Shown here piece by piece: positions 15,822 to 59,125 of a stretch of DNA of 64,000 bases (position 1 is its first letter; every line of letters starts with the position of its first letter). This stretch comes from Desulfobacterales bacterium (GTDB taxonomy: Bacteria > Desulfobacterota > Desulfobacteria > Desulfobacterales > JAHEIW01). The translations under genes were made by a program, and so were the position numbers. The notes under the pieces are model-generated. The model saw nothing but the letters and a program-made list of their open reading frames with translations, was not told where the DNA came from and did no database searches. The stretch is from the NCBI GenBank assembly GCA_030066985.1, contig JASJAN010000030.1:1-64000 (forward strand), read 5' to 3'.

Positions 15822-17077
15822 CGCTGCTGGCCATCCTTGCCGCCATAGTTTTAATGCTGATGGGGGTGCCTGTTTTTGTGGCGATCTGCGGGCTGGCCCT
15901 TTACCTGTTTTTTATCAGCGGCATTGACCTATCGGCCGTTGTGATTGAGATGCACCGCATGGCCACTACCCCAGTGCTGGTGGCCATTCCGCTGTTTACC
16001 TTCTCCGGATTCCTGCTTTCAGAAAGCGGCGCACCCAAACGATTGATCCGTCTGTCAAACGCGATCCTGGGCTGGTTGCCCGGCGGTATCGCAGTGATTG
16101 CGCTGATTTGCTGCGCTATTTTTACTGCCCTGACCGGAGCTACCGGTTTGACTATCATTGCTTTGGGCGGCATTTTGCTGCCGGCAATGACACGCGCCAG
16201 GTATCCGGAAAATTTCTCCCTAGGCTTGCTGACTACCTCCGGAACCCTGGGATTGCTGTTTCCTCCCAGTTTGCCGCTGATCATCTATGCCATCATCGCC
16301 GGTATCAGAATCGATCAGCTGTTTATTGCCGGTATCCTGCCCGGCATTTTACTGGTCGTGCTGCTGTCTTTGTTCAGTATTACCCGAGCGCTGCGCGCCG
16401 ATGTGCCCAAAACCAGTTTTAAGCTGTCTGAAATTTTGCAGGCCCTGCGGGAGGCGCTCTGGGAATTGCCCTTACCGGTGGTGGTTCTGGGTGGCATCTA
16501 CAGCGGCAAATTTGCCGTCAGTGAGGCGGCCGCCATTACGGCGGTTTACGTGTTGCTGGTCGAAGTGATTGTTTACCGGGATATTCGCTGGAAGGACTTG
16601 CCCGAAATCATGCGCAAAAGCATGGTTTTAGTGGGTGCCATCCTGATCATTCTGGGCGCGGCCATGGGTCTGACCAACTATCTTATCGATGCTGAAATAC
16701 CGATGCAGCTGCTGGATTTTTTCAAGACCCATATCGAAAGCAAATTTCTGTTTTTGCTGGTTTTGAACCTGTTTCTTTTGGCGGTGGGCTGTACGATGGG
16801 AATTTTTTCGGCCCTGGTGGTGGTGGTCCCGCTGCTGGCGCCCATTGCGGCGGCCTATGGCATCGACCCCATTCACCTGGGCATCATCTTTTTGGCCAAC
16901 CTGGAAATCGGCGCATCCATTCCCCCACTGGGCATCAATCTTTTTATCGCCAGTATCCGCTTCGAGCGTCCGGTGCTAAGGCTCTACGGGGCCTCACTGC
17001 CCTTTATCGCTATCCTGCTGGTGGCCTTAGCCCTGATTACCTATATCCCCTGGATAAGTCTTGTATTGCTCAAATAA
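15818..17077 (+). CDS. dctM: TRAP transporter large permease subunit DctM
   Basis: A 419-residue membrane protein with 11-12 hydrophobic segments, the transport subunit of the TRAP system. It starts at ATG 15818, inside the ATGA overlap with dctQ; the reading frame is open further upstream but that would run through dctQ. Family motifs include GVPVFVAICGLAL near the start, the ALTGATGLTIIALGGILLPA loop (a scaffold position of the substrate/sodium site) and GLLFPPSLPLIIYA. The length is typical. The operon ends here. An inverted repeat lies 210 bases downstream. Confidence 0.93.
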   Translation: MTLLAILAAIVLMLMGVPVFVAICGLALYLFFISGIDLSAVVIEMHRMATTPVLVAIPLFTFSGFLLSESGAPKRLIRLSNAILGWLPGGIAVIALICCAIFTALTGATGLTIIALGGILLPAMTRARYPENFSLGLLTTSGTLGLLFPPSLPLIIYAIIAGIRIDQLFIAGILPGILLVVLLSLFSITRALRADVPKTSFKLSEILQALREALWELPLPVVVLGGIYSGKFAVSEAAAITAVYVLLVEVIVYRDIRWKDLPEIMRKSMVLVGAILIILGAAMGLTNYLIDAEIPMQLLDFFKTHIESKFLFLLVLNLFLLAVGCTMGIFSALVVVVPLLAPIAAAYGIDPIHLGIIFLANLEIGASIPPLGINLFIASIRFERPVLRLYGASLPFIAILLVALALITYIPWISLVLLK

Positions 17078-39335: not shown

Positions 39336-39366
39336 GGGGGACGCCCATAAAATTATAAGTTTCTAG
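39336..39366 (-). repeat. GGGCGTCCCC-family repeat end, left (inverted)
   Basis: A 31-base segment whose reverse complement is CTAGAAACTTATAATTTTAT followed by GGGCGTCCCCC. It is identical to 56487-56517. Its degenerate inverted partner is at 39784-39803, and a 62-residue membrane protein gene lies between them. Confidence 0.8.
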
Positions 39367-39609: not shown

Positions 39610-39783
39610 CTGAAACCTCCTTATGATATTTTATGATTTTCTGTCATACAGCGTTTGAAACTAATCCGCAAGTCCATGTCCGATTCAGATCCGATCAAAA
39701 CAGGCCCATCTTGATTCTTTATAGAAATGGCCATCTTACACCGAAGCCGCCTTCTTCCGCGAAGTTATATTCGGCTATTATCG

Positions 39784-39803
39784 TATAATTTTATGGGCGC
39801 CCC
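39784..39803 (+). repeat. GGGCGTCCCC-family repeat end, right (degenerate)
   Basis: TATAATTTTATGGGCGCCCC matches the family end with one missing base in the GTCCCC part. It is inverted relative to 39336-39366. Confidence 0.65.
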
Positions 39804-39823
39804 GTTTCTTTCGGGAGGACTGT

Positions 39824-44845: not shown

Positions 44846-45103
44846 GGGGACGCCCATAAAATTATAAGTTTCTAGTTTTATTTTTGTCTTTTGGCTTAGC
44901 TCTTGTTAGGTCTTATAAAATGCTTATCAGAGTCGGCCCCCATTTTTAATTTCTATAAAATTGGGATCAGAAGGTACACGTATATAACCTCGGAATTGTT
45001 TATGTATCGGTATTTTATAATAAAACTTAAGGATGTAAAGCAATTGAAATTGAATAGGAGAGATTGGAAGCATGAAGAAACTTATAATTTTATGGGCGTC
45101 CCC
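44846..45103. mobile_element. MITE-like element with 27-bp perfect inverted ends
   Basis: The 27 bases at 44846-44872 are the exact reverse complement of 45077-45103. Each contains the family core GGGCGTCCCC plus TTATAATTTTAT. About 204 bases lie between, with no convincing gene; the frame at 44903-45139 runs through the end repeat. A second partial left end (ACTAGGGGGACG) abuts at 44829-44840. No clear target duplication is visible. It looks non-autonomous. Confidence 0.75.
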
Positions 45104-45121: not shown

Positions 45122-47122
45122 TTATTCGATGATACCTAGAATGAGTTGGCCTTCCACAGCACCTTTCTTTACCGGGTGTTGTTGTTGATCTGTGGCATCA
45201 GGGACATGCTCCGATACATATCGATAAGCCTCATCAACCGTAATTAAACCATCCTGATCGGTGTCGGCTTTTCCTTTTAGACCTTCCAACAAAAAATATG
45301 TAAACACGCCATGCTTAAGGTTTGGTTTTTCAGCACTGACCTCATTGGCACCGCTGGCCGTCAATATGATCTTGCCCTTACCTCTTGCAATTCGATCCAA
45401 AAAGCCATCCGATAAGTTTGATCTTATATCATTCAGGCTAATCGAGCGCCCTCCACTGGCGCCACTGTAGCATGAGTCGGCGATAAAAATGAGCCGCTCT
45501 GATTGGATCCTTTTGAAAATACGTGAAATTTCTGCCATCGGCAATGCTGTGGCGTACAGGTCTTTTGGATCCACATCATAGGGCAGAAGGTATTTTTCCA
45601 GTCCATCACCGTCCGGGCTACTGACATCTTTTTCCGTCGCCCCGTGCCCGGCAAAATAGATAATTACCATGTCCTCTTTGCCAGCCTTGTTCTTTAAATG
45701 TGTGCCCAGACTGCTTCTTATCTTCGTTAGCCTTGCATCTTCATTCAGCAGCAGAATAACATTTTCCGGAGGTATTTTATTAAAATCGATCAAGTATTGA
45801 TAGAACGCTTTGGCATCGTTGTCAGCGTAGTTTAGCTGTCGAATTTGAGGGTAGCTGTTAATACCGATGACAACCGCCCAAAAATTCCGATGCATTTGAA
45901 TTTTAGTGACCGTCAGTTCACGCTCGGTCAAAAGGCCATCAGCATCAATTGCATGTAGTTTAATCCGGTTTGCGCCTTTATCAAGGGGAATACGGCTGGT
46001 GAATTCAAATCTTTTTGGATACGCTCTTTCCTGTATTTTCAATCCGCGGACATCCGGATCTTCGATAAGTCGATTATTTACATAAACGTTCAGCTCTTTT
46101 AATCCCAGATCATCGATGGCTACCCCTGTAAGATTGATAAAGGGGGCCTCTGTGGTGATGCCATCTTTGGGTGTGGCCACGACGATAACAGGCGGGGTTT
46201 TCGAGCTTTCTTCCAGCTTTGTGAGTATTTCCTGTTTTTCTTCAAGCTGTTTGGCCAGAAGATCGCTCTTTTTTCTCTCCTCCTCAAACTTCAATTTCAT
46301 TTCTTCCAGCTGGGCTAAAGTTGCCGTCAGCTGAGCAAGCTTATTTTCAAGGTAATTGACCTCTTCCTGTTCAGACGCGCTTAGCTTTACGGGTGCATCA
46401 GGCGCAATAATTTTCTCTTCCGGAATACTTTTGGTCTGCTCAGCTTTTTGCGATTCAGCCTTCTTTTTTATTTCTTCTATTTGCTTTTCAACTTTAACCA
46501 ATTCTTCGGTTGCTTTTTTCTCAGCAACGTACACGGCTCGGCGCTTGTTTGCGAGATCCGAGGCCAGTTTAATTTGTGGATTATTCGGATTCTGCTTGTA
46601 CAATGATTCATAAAAATCAGCTATCTTTTCAAAGTCATCCCGCTGCCAGACGATGATATCGATTTTAAACGAACCCAAATTATCTATAAAATAAACTTTT
46701 TGCTTGGCGTTGCCGTATCGGTCATGTCCCCCATCAGTTAGGCCCAGGTATAAATACCCGGGATAAAATGCCTTTAGAATATAACCTGAAAAGTCCATAT
46801 AAGACAGAAGAACAGCGTGGTTTTTCCCCTCCCTGGCCAGTGTATTGGCACCGGGTGAATATACATACCGTTTTTTATCGGGGTTGCTTGGCCATACATT
46901 TATACTGCCGGTCCCAAACATTGAATAAAGATCGCCTTTTTCAAGACGCACGCCGGTATTTTGCATGCCCGGAATGTGGCCATATATATTTACCGTTTTG
47001 TATTCTTTGACGATTTCCGGCAACGGTTCAGAATTTTTCAGAACGGGTTTTGAAGCACATCCGATGGCAAACAGACATGCATAAAGGCAAAAGACGCAGA
47101 GAAATGGGAGGCGCTTTGGCAT
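45122..47122 (-). CDS. caspase-like (C14) peptidase lipoprotein with coiled coil
   Basis: A 666-residue exported protein with lipobox AIGC (C22). The N-terminal third is unknown (GTGSINVWPSNPDK). A long coiled coil covers about 195-320. A beta-rich (Ig-like) section follows (about 325-405). The C-terminal caspase/metacaspase fold (about 413-665) has the catalytic dyad H493 (YFAGHGA) and C551 (ADSCYSG). An EF-hand-like loop, DTDQDGLITVDE, sits at about 620-631. A periplasmic or outer-membrane caspase homologue may process envelope proteins. No partner gene or toxin is adjacent. Confidence 0.85.
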   Translation of the reverse strand: MPKRLPFLCVFCLYACLFAIGCASKPVLKNSEPLPEIVKEYKTVNIYGHIPGMQNTGVRLEKGDLYSMFGTGSINVWPSNPDKKRYVYSPGANTLAREGKNHAVLLSYMDFSGYILKAFYPGYLYLGLTDGGHDRYGNAKQKVYFIDNLGSFKIDIIVWQRDDFEKIADFYESLYKQNPNNPQIKLASDLANKRRAVYVAEKKATEELVKVEKQIEEIKKKAESQKAEQTKSIPEEKIIAPDAPVKLSASEQEEVNYLENKLAQLTATLAQLEEMKLKFEEERKKSDLLAKQLEEKQEILTKLEESSKTPPVIVVATPKDGITTEAPFINLTGVAIDDLGLKELNVYVNNRLIEDPDVRGLKIQERAYPKRFEFTSRIPLDKGANRIKLHAIDADGLLTERELTVTKIQMHRNFWAVVIGINSYPQIRQLNYADNDAKAFYQYLIDFNKIPPENVILLLNEDARLTKIRSSLGTHLKNKAGKEDMVIIYFAGHGATEKDVSSPDGDGLEKYLLPYDVDPKDLYATALPMAEISRIFKRIQSERLIFIADSCYSGASGGRSISLNDIRSNLSDGFLDRIARGKGKIILTASGANEVSAEKPNLKHGVFTYFLLEGLKGKADTDQDGLITVDEAYRYVSEHVPDATDQQQHPVKKGAVEGQLILGIIE

Positions 47123-47486
47123 GTTTGAGGCTCTTTTTTCTGGAGATTATAGTCGGTAGCTGACTGAAAATATAATAAATCAAACTGGATATGTTTATGT
47201 CAATAAAAGATATACAAACAGACATAATAGGGCCGATCTGAGCCCTTAAATCTTTTTTTAACCTTACCGGCTAAACCATCTCTTCGGCAGCTTGACAGCT
47301 GCCACGTTGTGCCATAGTATTTTTTAACTATAAATCTACATATATAGAAAGCAGGTGATACCAGAGCTTATCATTGCGCAACCGTAAAGTTTCGTTTTGA
47401 GGCGCTGCTAAACCGCGCAGACCCATAGTTCAAATAATGATTCGTTGAGCTCCGCCTTGGATTTCTTGAAAGGAGGTCTAAGCAAA

Positions 47487-47606
47487 ATGACGTACTCAAC
47501 GAAGTGCTATACCCACACAATAATATTTCAACGCGATTCTCATGGTGGTTCAAAGACTCGCTTGCAAAAGCCCATGCCGTTTCTATGGTATGGGCTTTTT
47601 ATTTGA
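47487..47606 (+). CDS. possible 39-residue leader peptide ORF
   Basis: ATG 47487 lies nine bases after a strong AAAGGAGG (47469-47476). The frame encodes 39 residues (MTYSTKCYTHTIIF…) and ends in TGA 47604-47606, just after a hairpin with a T-run. The upstream inverted repeat TTCGTTGAG (47441-47449)/CTCAACGAA (47495-47503) could bury the ribosome site. Stop codon and terminator overlap as in attenuator leaders. It may also be a chance ORF. Confidence 0.35.
   Translation: MTYSTKCYTHTIIFQRDSHGGSKTRLQKPMPFLWYGLFI
47566..47601 (+). terminator. intrinsic terminator or attenuator hairpin
   Basis: AAAAGCCCATGCC (47566-47578) pairs with GGTATGGGCTTTT (about 47586-47598) and a T-run follows. It sits 38 bases before the next gene, so it would end any transcript before the twin-CX3C gene unless antitermination occurs. 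Confidence 0.7.
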
Positions 47607-47638
47607 ATGAAAACCTAAATGATTAATAGGAGGCAAAG

Positions 47639-47959
47639 ATGATCATAAATATTTATGGAGATGGATCGGTAGATGAGCGGGTTGGTCAAGAAAATCAAAG
47701 AGCGCCGAGTGGAGTTTCCTGGCATAACCACTGCAAAAAAAAGGACCCGGATAATGTAGGGGGATGCTGTGACGATTTGCAAACTCTTTGTATTGATAAA
47801 TGTGATGACAAATTTATCGACGACGGAAATTTTGACGGCATTGGCTGTATACGCGATTGCGATTCTGCCTGGAGTGATTGCGCCGCTGTATTAGAAGATG
47901 AAACTGATCCTACCTTAAAGGAACAGGCAAAAAAAACTCGGAAATCAAAAAAAACATAA
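47639..47959 (+). CDS. Cys-rich twin-CX3C protein
   Basis: A 106-residue protein with no signal peptide and eight cysteines. C51-x3-C55 and C70-x3-C74 are separated by 14 residues. This twin CX3C spacing matches helical-hairpin proteins held by two disulfides, such as small Tim chaperones. C32, C43, C44 and C81 are extra. The tail is very basic (KKTRKSKKT). GGAGG lies seven bases before ATG. It is next to a lipoprotein with the same cysteine pattern. Function unknown; disulfide formation would need export or an oxidising site. Confidence 0.72.
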   Translation: MIINIYGDGSVDERVGQENQRAPSGVSWHNHCKKKDPDNVGGCCDDLQTLCIDKCDDKFIDDGNFDGIGCIRDCDSAWSDCAAVLEDETDPTLKEQAKKTRKSKKT

Positions 47960-48052
47960 TCTTAAAAATTTTTATCTACAGCAAACGCAATAATTTTCAT
48001 TTACGTAAACGGGCACAGCTGCGGTAAAACCTCACGCGAAAGGAGGCCCATG

Positions 48053-48379
48053 ATGAAGAACGTTTATGCATTGTGTATCGTAATGTCCTTGATGCTCATA
48101 GCAGGTTGTGTGGCAAATCAGCCCATCCCCGACGTTAGAAATCTGCCGGAAGACTTTGCCCCCATTTATGATCAATCGCTGGCTGATCTTAGTGCAGCTG
48201 CTTTGGGTAGAAATCAATGCAGAACAAATTGCGTTGTTGAATATGAAGGGCAGATCGGCAAATTAAAAATCTGTAACGATCTTTGCGATTGCCTACACAG
48301 AGATCAGGAGCTTGCGCCGACATGGAACCGGTATATTACTTGCGTCAATGAATTGCTCGATGAAATCCTGGCAGAGTAA
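48053..48379 (+). CDS. twin-CX3C lipoprotein
   Basis: A 108-residue lipoprotein with lipobox LIAGC (C19). C56-x3-C60 and C74-x3-C78 are 13 residues apart, with C80 and C97 also present. The cysteine pattern is shared with the preceding gene, though overall similarity is low. AGGAGG lies before two ATGs; I use 48053 (six-base spacing) over 48050. Gap to the previous gene is 93 bases. Its mature part should be anchored in the envelope, where disulfides can form. Function unknown. Confidence 0.72.
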   Translation: MKNVYALCIVMSLMLIAGCVANQPIPDVRNLPEDFAPIYDQSLADLSAAALGRNQCRTNCVVEYEGQIGKLKICNDLCDCLHRDQELAPTWNRYITCVNELLDEILAE

Positions 48380-49783: not shown

Positions 49784-51169
49784 TTATGAATTAGCTTTCA
49801 ATGGCTTCAGCTCTGCGAGCATGGTCGGTATCAGCTCTGACACGGTGGGATGGATATGCATGGCGCGTTGGATCACCGTGTAAGGTTGTTTCGCATACAT
49901 GACATCCAAAATAGAATGGATGGCCTCATCACCGCCAACGCCTAAAATGGCCGCACCCAAAATCTCTTTGCTGTCTGCATCCACCAAAATTTTCATAAAC
50001 CCCTGGGTTTCGCCTTTTTCAATGGCGCGGCCAATGTTTTTCATGGCTCTTTTGCCAATCAGCGCCTTGCGCCCCGATTGTTTTACCTGCGCCTCTGTCA
50101 TTCCGGCGCGCCCCAGCGGCGGATCGATGTATAAACCGTAGCAAAGAATGCGATCGCTGACCCGACGGGGGTCATCATCCAATAAATTGGCGGCAACGAT
50201 CTCGTAATCGTTATAGGATGTATGGGTAAACGCGCCCTTGCCATTGCAGTCGCCCAGCGCCCATATGCCGGGCATATTGGTGCGCAGTTGGTCATCCACC
50301 TGGACGTAGCCGCGTTCATCCGTATCAACTCCGGCTTTATCTAAGCCCAGATCATCGGTGTTGGGTGTGCGCCCGACCGCCAGGAGCAGGTGAGAGCCGT
50401 TGACGGCCTTAGCGCCCTTTTCGCAATCGAGCTTAACCTGCACACCATCGCCCTTTTTTTCAACGGCAATACATTCGGCATCGAGTCGAATGTCGATCCC
50501 CTCGTTTTGCAAAATGTCTTTAACCGCTTCAGATACATCTTCATCATCGCGCGCAATCAGGCGGGATCCCATTTCAATAACCGTCACCAGACTGCCGAAC
50601 CGCCGGTACATCTGGGCAAACTCAAGGCCAATATAGCTGCCGCCAATAATGACCAGATGCTCCGGCAGATAGTCGATCTGCATCATGCCGGAATTGGTTA
50701 AATAATCGATCTGATCAAGCCCCGGCATGGGCGGCACAAATGCCCGGCCACCGACATTGATAAATATCTTGCCTGCTTCCAGGACCTCATTGCCGATGCT
50801 CACCTTCCGGGGACCTTCAAATCGGGCATGCCCTTTGAAGACGGTCAGGTTGGATATCTTTTTCATCCATTCCGGCACTTCATGATTGGAACGGCCCGCC
50901 ACGTCATCTTTGCGTGCTTTGACCTTTTTCATGTCCACCGTAACGCTGCCGTCGATCATCACGCCGAAATCAGCCGCACGTCTGGCCATGTATGCAGCAC
51001 GGGCGCTGGCCACCATCGTTTTGGTGGGAATACACCCGGTGTTAACACACGTACCCCCGAACAATTTCCGCTCGATAATTGCGACCTTCATTCCTGCGCC
51101 GGCCAATCTTGCCGACAGCGACGGCCCCGCCTGACCGGTGCCAATGATAATGGCATCAAATTTTTTCAT
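49784..51169 (-). CDS. pyridine nucleotide-disulfide oxidoreductase (Lpd/MerA-like)
   Basis: A 461-residue FAD flavoenzyme with the redox-active disulfide C41-x4-C46 (GGTCVNTGCIPTK), an FAD site (IIIGTGQAG), an NAD(P) site (IIGGSYIGLEFA), ALGDCNG and the C-terminal His-Glu pair (AMHIHPTVSEL). The family includes dihydrolipoamide dehydrogenase and mercuric reductase; no lipoyl enzymes or mer genes are adjacent. It is closest in appearance to FAD-containing oxidoreductases of unknown substrate. GGAGG lies ten bases before ATG 51169. Confidence 0.88.
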   Translation of the reverse strand: MKKFDAIIIGTGQAGPSLSARLAGAGMKVAIIERKLFGGTCVNTGCIPTKTMVASARAAYMARRAADFGVMIDGSVTVDMKKVKARKDDVAGRSNHEVPEWMKKISNLTVFKGHARFEGPRKVSIGNEVLEAGKIFINVGGRAFVPPMPGLDQIDYLTNSGMMQIDYLPEHLVIIGGSYIGLEFAQMYRRFGSLVTVIEMGSRLIARDDEDVSEAVKDILQNEGIDIRLDAECIAVEKKGDGVQVKLDCEKGAKAVNGSHLLLAVGRTPNTDDLGLDKAGVDTDERGYVQVDDQLRTNMPGIWALGDCNGKGAFTHTSYNDYEIVAANLLDDDPRRVSDRILCYGLYIDPPLGRAGMTEAQVKQSGRKALIGKRAMKNIGRAIEKGETQGFMKILVDADSKEILGAAILGVGGDEAIHSILDVMYAKQPYTVIQRAMHIHPTVSELIPTMLAELKPLKANS

Positions 51170-51387
51170 GGGTCGTATTCCTCCATATTTAATTGCTGTC
51201 ATTGAAAAATTACGGCAGGCCCGGCAAGCTGTCAATCAATGCGCATGAAATCTATTTGCCCATTGAGGGGATAATCGCAATTTATGCCAGATTTTAAGTG
51301 TGATGCGGTAGTTACTCTACTCCAGGGTTTGTGCAAATTTTCTTAAAACGGTTGTGGCGATGGGGTACAGCAGGCGGTGCCCCCCAA

Positions 51388-56486: not shown

Positions 56487-56517
56487 CTAGAAACTTATAA
56501 TTTTATGGGCGTCCCCC
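56487..56517 (+). repeat. GGGCGTCCCC-family repeat end
   Basis: A 31-base copy identical to the reverse complement of 39336-39366, including CTAGAAACTTATAATTTTAT and the GGGCGTCCCCC core. Its inverted partner is not evident within 500 bases. Confidence 0.8.
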
Positions 56518-59048: not shown

Positions 59049-59125
59049 CTAGAAACTTATAATTTTATTGGCGTCCCGCTGGTTCTTAACTATTTAACCA
59101 GTCAACCAATATGACGGGCGTCCCC
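59049..59125 (+). repeat. two adjacent GGGCGTCCCC-family ends
   Basis: CTAGAAACTTATAATTTTAT plus a mutated core TGGCGTCCCG at 59049-59080 is followed after about 25 bases by a second end, ACCAATATGACGGGCGTCCC (59105-59125). They lie just before the methyltransferase and the iron-sulfur gene on the minus strand. Confidence 0.75.

Follow-up and report, generated by a model that had tools for sequence, protein, structure and literature searches.

Two adjacent orphan genes for putative cysteine-ladder hairpin proteins in a Desulfobacterales bacterium

Two small genes, here called A and B, follow one another in the same orientation on the + strand of a 64,000-nucleotide stretch of Desulfobacterales DNA (the window, meaning the whole stretch that was analyzed) and are flanked by genes for a caspase-domain lipoprotein, a glyoxalase-family protein and a PA2779-family protein (Table 1). 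Both encode cysteine-rich proteins with the twin CX3C motif pointed out in the initial annotation, the two halves being separated by 14 residues in A (C51-x3-C55-x14-C70-x3-C74) and by 13 in B (C57-x3-C61-x13-C75-x3-C79). The cysteines of A occupy positions 32, 43, 44, 51, 55, 70, 74, and 81, the first of them within the sequence HNHC (residues 29–32). No signal peptide was found in A, and its C-terminus is basic (net charge +6 over the last 14 residues), both as initially described; the hairpin core is acidic (net −13). The frame of A opens just 3 codons upstream of the ATG and a longer start is therefore impossible. B begins with a type II signal peptide (MMKNVYALCIVMSLMLIAG, with cleavage before the lipid cysteine Cys20) that shows the consensus lipobox IAGC and a valine at +2, in agreement with the lipobox ascribed to one member of the pair. 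Its cysteines are located at positions 9, 20 (lipobox), 57, 61, 75, 79, 81, and 98, so that the mature protein retains six non-lipid cysteines, an even number and enough for three disulfides.

Table 1. Features of the A/B locus and its surroundings (positions in the window).
Feature	Position	Strand	Remarks
258-bp element	44846-45103		bounded by inverted repeat
Caspase-domain (Peptidase_C14) lipoprotein	45122-47122	-	start 47122, flanks A
Sigma-70-type promoter-like site	47292..47320	+	TTGACA-17-TAGTAT; 10/12 matches, by consensus only; top-scoring 5' of A
Leader	47326..47606	+	about 270 nt up to terminator
39-codon ORF	47487-47606	+	overlaps terminator
Intrinsic terminator	47566..47604	+	15 bp stem, 4 nt loop, T-rich tail
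Shine-Dalgarno of gene A	47628..47633	+	AGGAGG
Gene A	47639-47959	+	106 aa, 8 Cys
Shine-Dalgarno of gene B	48041..48046	+	AGGAGG
Gene B	48050-48379	+	109 aa lipoprotein
Glyoxalase-family protein	48647		flank of A/B
PA2779/DUF6627 protein		-	flank of A/B
Pyridine nucleotide-disulphide oxidoreductase	49784-51235	-	adjoins PA2779/DUF6627 gene

For A as well as for B, the annotated frame has the highest codon score of all six. The scores themselves (0.10 and 0.11, respectively) are near the 5th percentile (0.12) of a reference made up of 318-nt chunks from the large genes of the window, and in synonymous codon usage A falls below the 5th percentile of these genes, while that of B is low. Such values fit young or acquired genes, of which they are not proof. 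The flanking genes point to no function for A or B, no metal genes are found next to them, and the gene order around them differs from that of the sister-genome loci that were examined.

Some features of the surroundings were recorded in their own right. The Peptidase_C14 lipoprotein has a predicted coiled-coil-like middle, four further matches in the genome (the nearest with 48% identity) and a relative in a sister genus that is 53% identical. The oxidoreductase encoded beside the PA2779/DUF6627 gene carries the redox motif GGTCVNTGCIPTK. The 258-bp element has a perfect 28-nt inverted repeat at its two ends (GGGGACGCCCATAAAATTATAAGTTTCT) and represents a family of MITE-like or REP-like mobile elements; its terminus is present six times in the window with 0–3 mismatches, none being expected by chance, and the further copies are located at 39337–39359, 39782–39804, 56494–56516, and 59056–59078.

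A possible attenuator had been proposed to precede the two genes. The terminator upstream of A is real and strong (−23 kcal/mol, about 35 nt upstream of the A ATG), and the leader (47326–47640) folds better than shuffled sequences (z −2.45). No promoter-like site was found between the terminator and A, which makes read-through the likely route of expression; A is transcribed either in this way or from an unrecognised promoter, and B may be co-transcribed with it. The attenuation itself found little backing: an antiterminator is absent from the predicted ensemble (pairing of the terminator 5' arm with the upstream leader is near 1e-10), no Rfam family, riboswitch or other, matches the leader at or above gathering, no homologous leader was found for covariation, and the terminator may just end a small upstream transcript. 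A true attenuator through which a signal (e.g., cysteine or metal status) would switch on A and B, although compatible with each of the readings discussed below, is rather unlikely. The 39-codon ORF in this region has a strong ribosome site, which is paired in the predicted leader fold, and a poor codon score; it is probably not coding, or undecidable.

The cysteine arrangement of A is richer than first described, as it includes a third nested pair. The series C44-x6-C51-x3-C55-x14-C70-x3-C74-x6-C81 comprises three exactly nested pairs (44–81, 51–74, and 55–70, with a position sum of 125 each), residues C32 and C43 having no ladder partner, and B contains two nested pairs (57–79 and 61–75, position sum 136) and two further cysteines besides. 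The gaps between ladder cysteines are of 7 and 4 residues, which places them on one helix face. Because the ladder and motif criteria were picked after the sequences had been seen, the following chance figures serve as guides: when eight cysteines were placed at random, a three-rung ladder as in A arose in 70 of 200,000 trials (about 3.5 in 10,000), and two or more rungs as in B in 2.8% of random placements; twin CX3C with a spacer of 9–18 residues appeared in 1.1% (A) and 0.8% (B) of composition-preserving shuffles, and its presence in both proteins, given that both are cysteine-rich and that the motif was chosen post hoc, would be expected about once in 10,000. Elsewhere in the window twin CX3C occurs in three frames (at 16359, 35122, and 7023; 61–95 codons, 8–14 Cys) that are taken for shadow ORFs, and A and B are the only plausible genes of the window with this motif.

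The helical hairpin attributed to both proteins was examined with AlphaFold2 models built from the single sequences, with no alignment. The model of A consists of antiparallel helices 37–62 and 66–88 (block pLDDT about 61–76) and that of B of helices 34–49, 54–65, 69–82, and 92–108; in both, the ladder cysteines are predicted to lie on facing helices (54–65 versus 69–82 in B). The cysteine geometry and the models agree in this respect, but the confidence is modest (mean pLDDT 60 and pTM 0.40 for A, 59 and 0.56 for B, with block pLDDT up to 76) and a structural match is missing: Foldseek returned nothing significant, the fold searches nothing below E 1, and the best VIA-align Z values (6.8 for A and 4.4 for B) are values that unrelated helical proteins also reach. 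Neither small Tims nor Csps appear among the fold-search matches listed, an absence that does not amount to exclusion. On these models, A and B each appear to adopt a helical hairpin across which the cysteines face one another.

Relatives were sought in a variety of collections. Translated searches detected no homologue of A or B in a 116-genome set of relatives that includes their own genome or across 389 genomes of the order, and none of A, which alone was searched at this level, across 395 genomes of the phylum; neither gene has a relative in the three genomes from the genus and the additional two from the family. Scans with peptide patterns, which detect close relatives only, gave no homologue in 84,980 species or in viral contigs, and neither did phage and plasmid records. 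Pfam, NCBIfam and PDB-sequence searches revealed no family match beyond the signal peptide of B, and A has no PADLOC or PHROG match. A number of candidates were rejected: the best weak matches to both proteins, inspected individually, are due to chance or to the lipoprotein signal peptide; the PHROG matches of B (phrog_3224, Rz-like spanins) cover its first 35 residues only, i.e., the signal peptide region; and the other loci examined with the six-cysteine DNA pattern of A in the 389 order genomes are interrupted by stops or consist of repetitive low-complexity DNA, except for three open frames of 65–113 codons that are unlike A. The similarity between A and B beyond the cysteines is as low as initially stated (BLASTP E 2.1), and homology between them was discarded on an alignment score below the shuffle mean, which is weak evidence since the cysteines are out of register in that alignment. 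A and B are best read as genuine lineage-restricted (orphan) small proteins, so far found in one bacterium only.

The reading preferred here, with a probability of roughly 0.4, is that A and B are independent users of a CX3C ladder, B being stapled in the cell envelope and A being a cytosolic protein with a metal or thiol role. In each of them separately, the facing helices of a hairpin would carry cysteine rungs spaced i,i+4 and i,i+7. B would be exported and lipidated; lipoproteins with valine at +2 are directed to the outer membrane, and by this usual rule B most likely resides there. Pairing is possible for all six remaining cysteines of B, and with a VKOR oxidase gene in the genome (3.2e-26, above the curated cut-off), disulfides are feasible. 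Three of them (57–79, 61–75, and 81–98), made by the VKOR pathway, are probable, and B would then be a disulfide-stapled envelope lipoprotein. A has neither a signal nor an upstream start and is therefore probably cytosolic, its cysteines probably reduced. The two disulfides originally envisaged for each hairpin suit neither protein exactly, as A is probably reduced and has three nested pairs whereas the six non-lipid cysteines of B suffice for three bonds. While it stays in the cytosol with reduced thiols, the three-rung ladder of A (44/81, 51/74, and 55/70) may hold a soft metal ion such as Zn or Cu(I). There is precedent for such chemistry: in vitro, small Tims carrying twin CX3C in the reduced state take up Zn 1:1 (PMC3759932), and cytosolic Csp3 proteins use helical CXXXC, partly together with His, to bind Cu(I) (PMC5171941). 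A metal role would for this reason be the preferred one for A. Most likely, the locus contains two orphan cysteine-ladder hairpin proteins, perhaps linked, of which A is possibly metal-binding.

It is also quite conceivable, at less than even odds, that A and B are unrelated orphans, recently arisen or acquired, in which the motif represents convergence on hairpin stapling with no joint function. The lack of homology between them, the absence of relatives even from the nearest genomes of the genus and family, the synonymous codon usage, the missing synteny of the neighbours in those sister-genome loci that were examined and the 90-nt gap from A to B are in line with this explanation, against which stand the shared orientation, the strong ribosome sites on both genes and the fact that the motif is common to exactly these two neighbours. 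The adjacency of the genes, which had been noted at the outset, is the sole argument for a functional link. If A and B do cooperate, the simplest picture would be thiol or metal buffering in two compartments. A full two-compartment pair of thiol-ladder hairpins, expressed from an attenuated operon for the handling of soft metal or thiol stress and representing a bacterial use undescribed before, is improbable. The literature searched yielded no bacterial counterpart that has been described, as the initial annotation had supposed.

A further and very unlikely explanation is that A is the precursor of a secreted antibacterial peptide and B its immunity protein. Lipoprotein immunity is a known device, and GG at residues 41–42 of A, directly before the cysteine core, could mark a cleavage site in front of C43. 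Helical peptides with nested disulfides are represented by the glycocins (PMC12457901), and twin CX3C occurs in plant alpha-hairpinins (PMC11591084). However, the residues read back from GG are V, N, D, P, and D, so that the pattern of hydrophobic residues in double-glycine leaders is not present and a leader of the glycocin type is ruled out; moreover, A has no counterpart in PADLOC or PHROG, and neither a peptidase-transporter nor a glycosyltransferase was found by Pfam among 13 neighbouring proteins (about 39.8–57.2 kb; three of them with no Pfam match at all). The weakest explanation, a bacterial small Tim counterpart in which A and B would assemble around hydrophobic proteins as a protective ring or clamp, finds some encouragement in the helix-loop-helix models and in spacers (x14 and x13) within the 11–16 residues of small Tims (PMC5584982) and yet is highly improbable, given that the zf-Tim10_DDP match is absent, that A without an export signal and the lipidated B would occupy different compartments and that A has a very acidic hairpin core.

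Should the fold and the link between A and B prove true, two unrelated bacterial proteins would have converged on the cysteine-stapled hairpin of mitochondria and plants, one reduced in the cytosol and the other oxidised in the envelope, and nature would thereby offer a way to test which advantage, disulfide stapling or metal binding, leads to the choice of the motif. If they are no more than a couple of orphans, they would show how readily the motif originates and would caution against inferring Tim ancestry from twin CX3C alone.

A number of known systems resemble A and B to a limited extent. Glycocins are small bacterial peptides with nested disulfides, three in some cases, but come with a glycosyltransferase, a peptidase-transporter and a recognisable leader, and neither gene is seen near A and B. 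Csp1 and Csp3 share with A and B the CXXXC motif on helices and the occurrence of cytosolic and exported forms, and they have His near the metal entrance, to which the HNHC of A may be compared; in contrast, Csp monomers are four-helix bundles with many Cys (18–19 in Csp3), whereas the long helices of A number two and its Cys 8, and no Csp family match was obtained for either protein in Pfam, NCBIfam or PDB-sequence. Plant alpha-hairpinins, which are defence peptides, have a CX3C-Xn-CX3C helix-loop-helix with two disulfides in which the cysteines are sometimes the sole conserved residues. Their core is described as CX3C-X(4-20)-CX3C or, in six-cysteine forms, CX3CX3C-X(4-20)-CX3CX3C, with no CC flanking it (PMC11591084); the four-cysteine core fits A and B, but the outer cysteines of A are at x6 rather than x3 (CX6CX3C…CX3CX6C), CC precedes the core of A at 43–44 and CDC stands at the core end of B.

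The small Tims (zf-Tim10_DDP, PF02953), which act as hexameric chaperones for hydrophobic clients, are similar to A and B in their twin CX3C, a size of about 10 kDa and, if the models of modest confidence are right, a helix-loop-helix. The small-Tim-like system initially suggested is unsupported in view of the lack of a family match, the probably different compartments and the lack of detectable A–B homology: with a limit of E 10, neither A nor B gave a Pfam match to zf-Tim10_DDP (HMMER filters drop most weak matches). The family was equally without a match in the own genome and 57 relatives, a result that does not establish its absence from the genome since control genomes gave no match either. 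Compared with small Tims, A possesses a total of three nested pairs as well as two additional cysteines and is probably cytosolic, and B is lipidated, with two more cysteines and one more helix, its third. Since the same arrangement is present in small Tims and in plant alpha-hairpinins, convergence is the simpler account of the motif in A and B.
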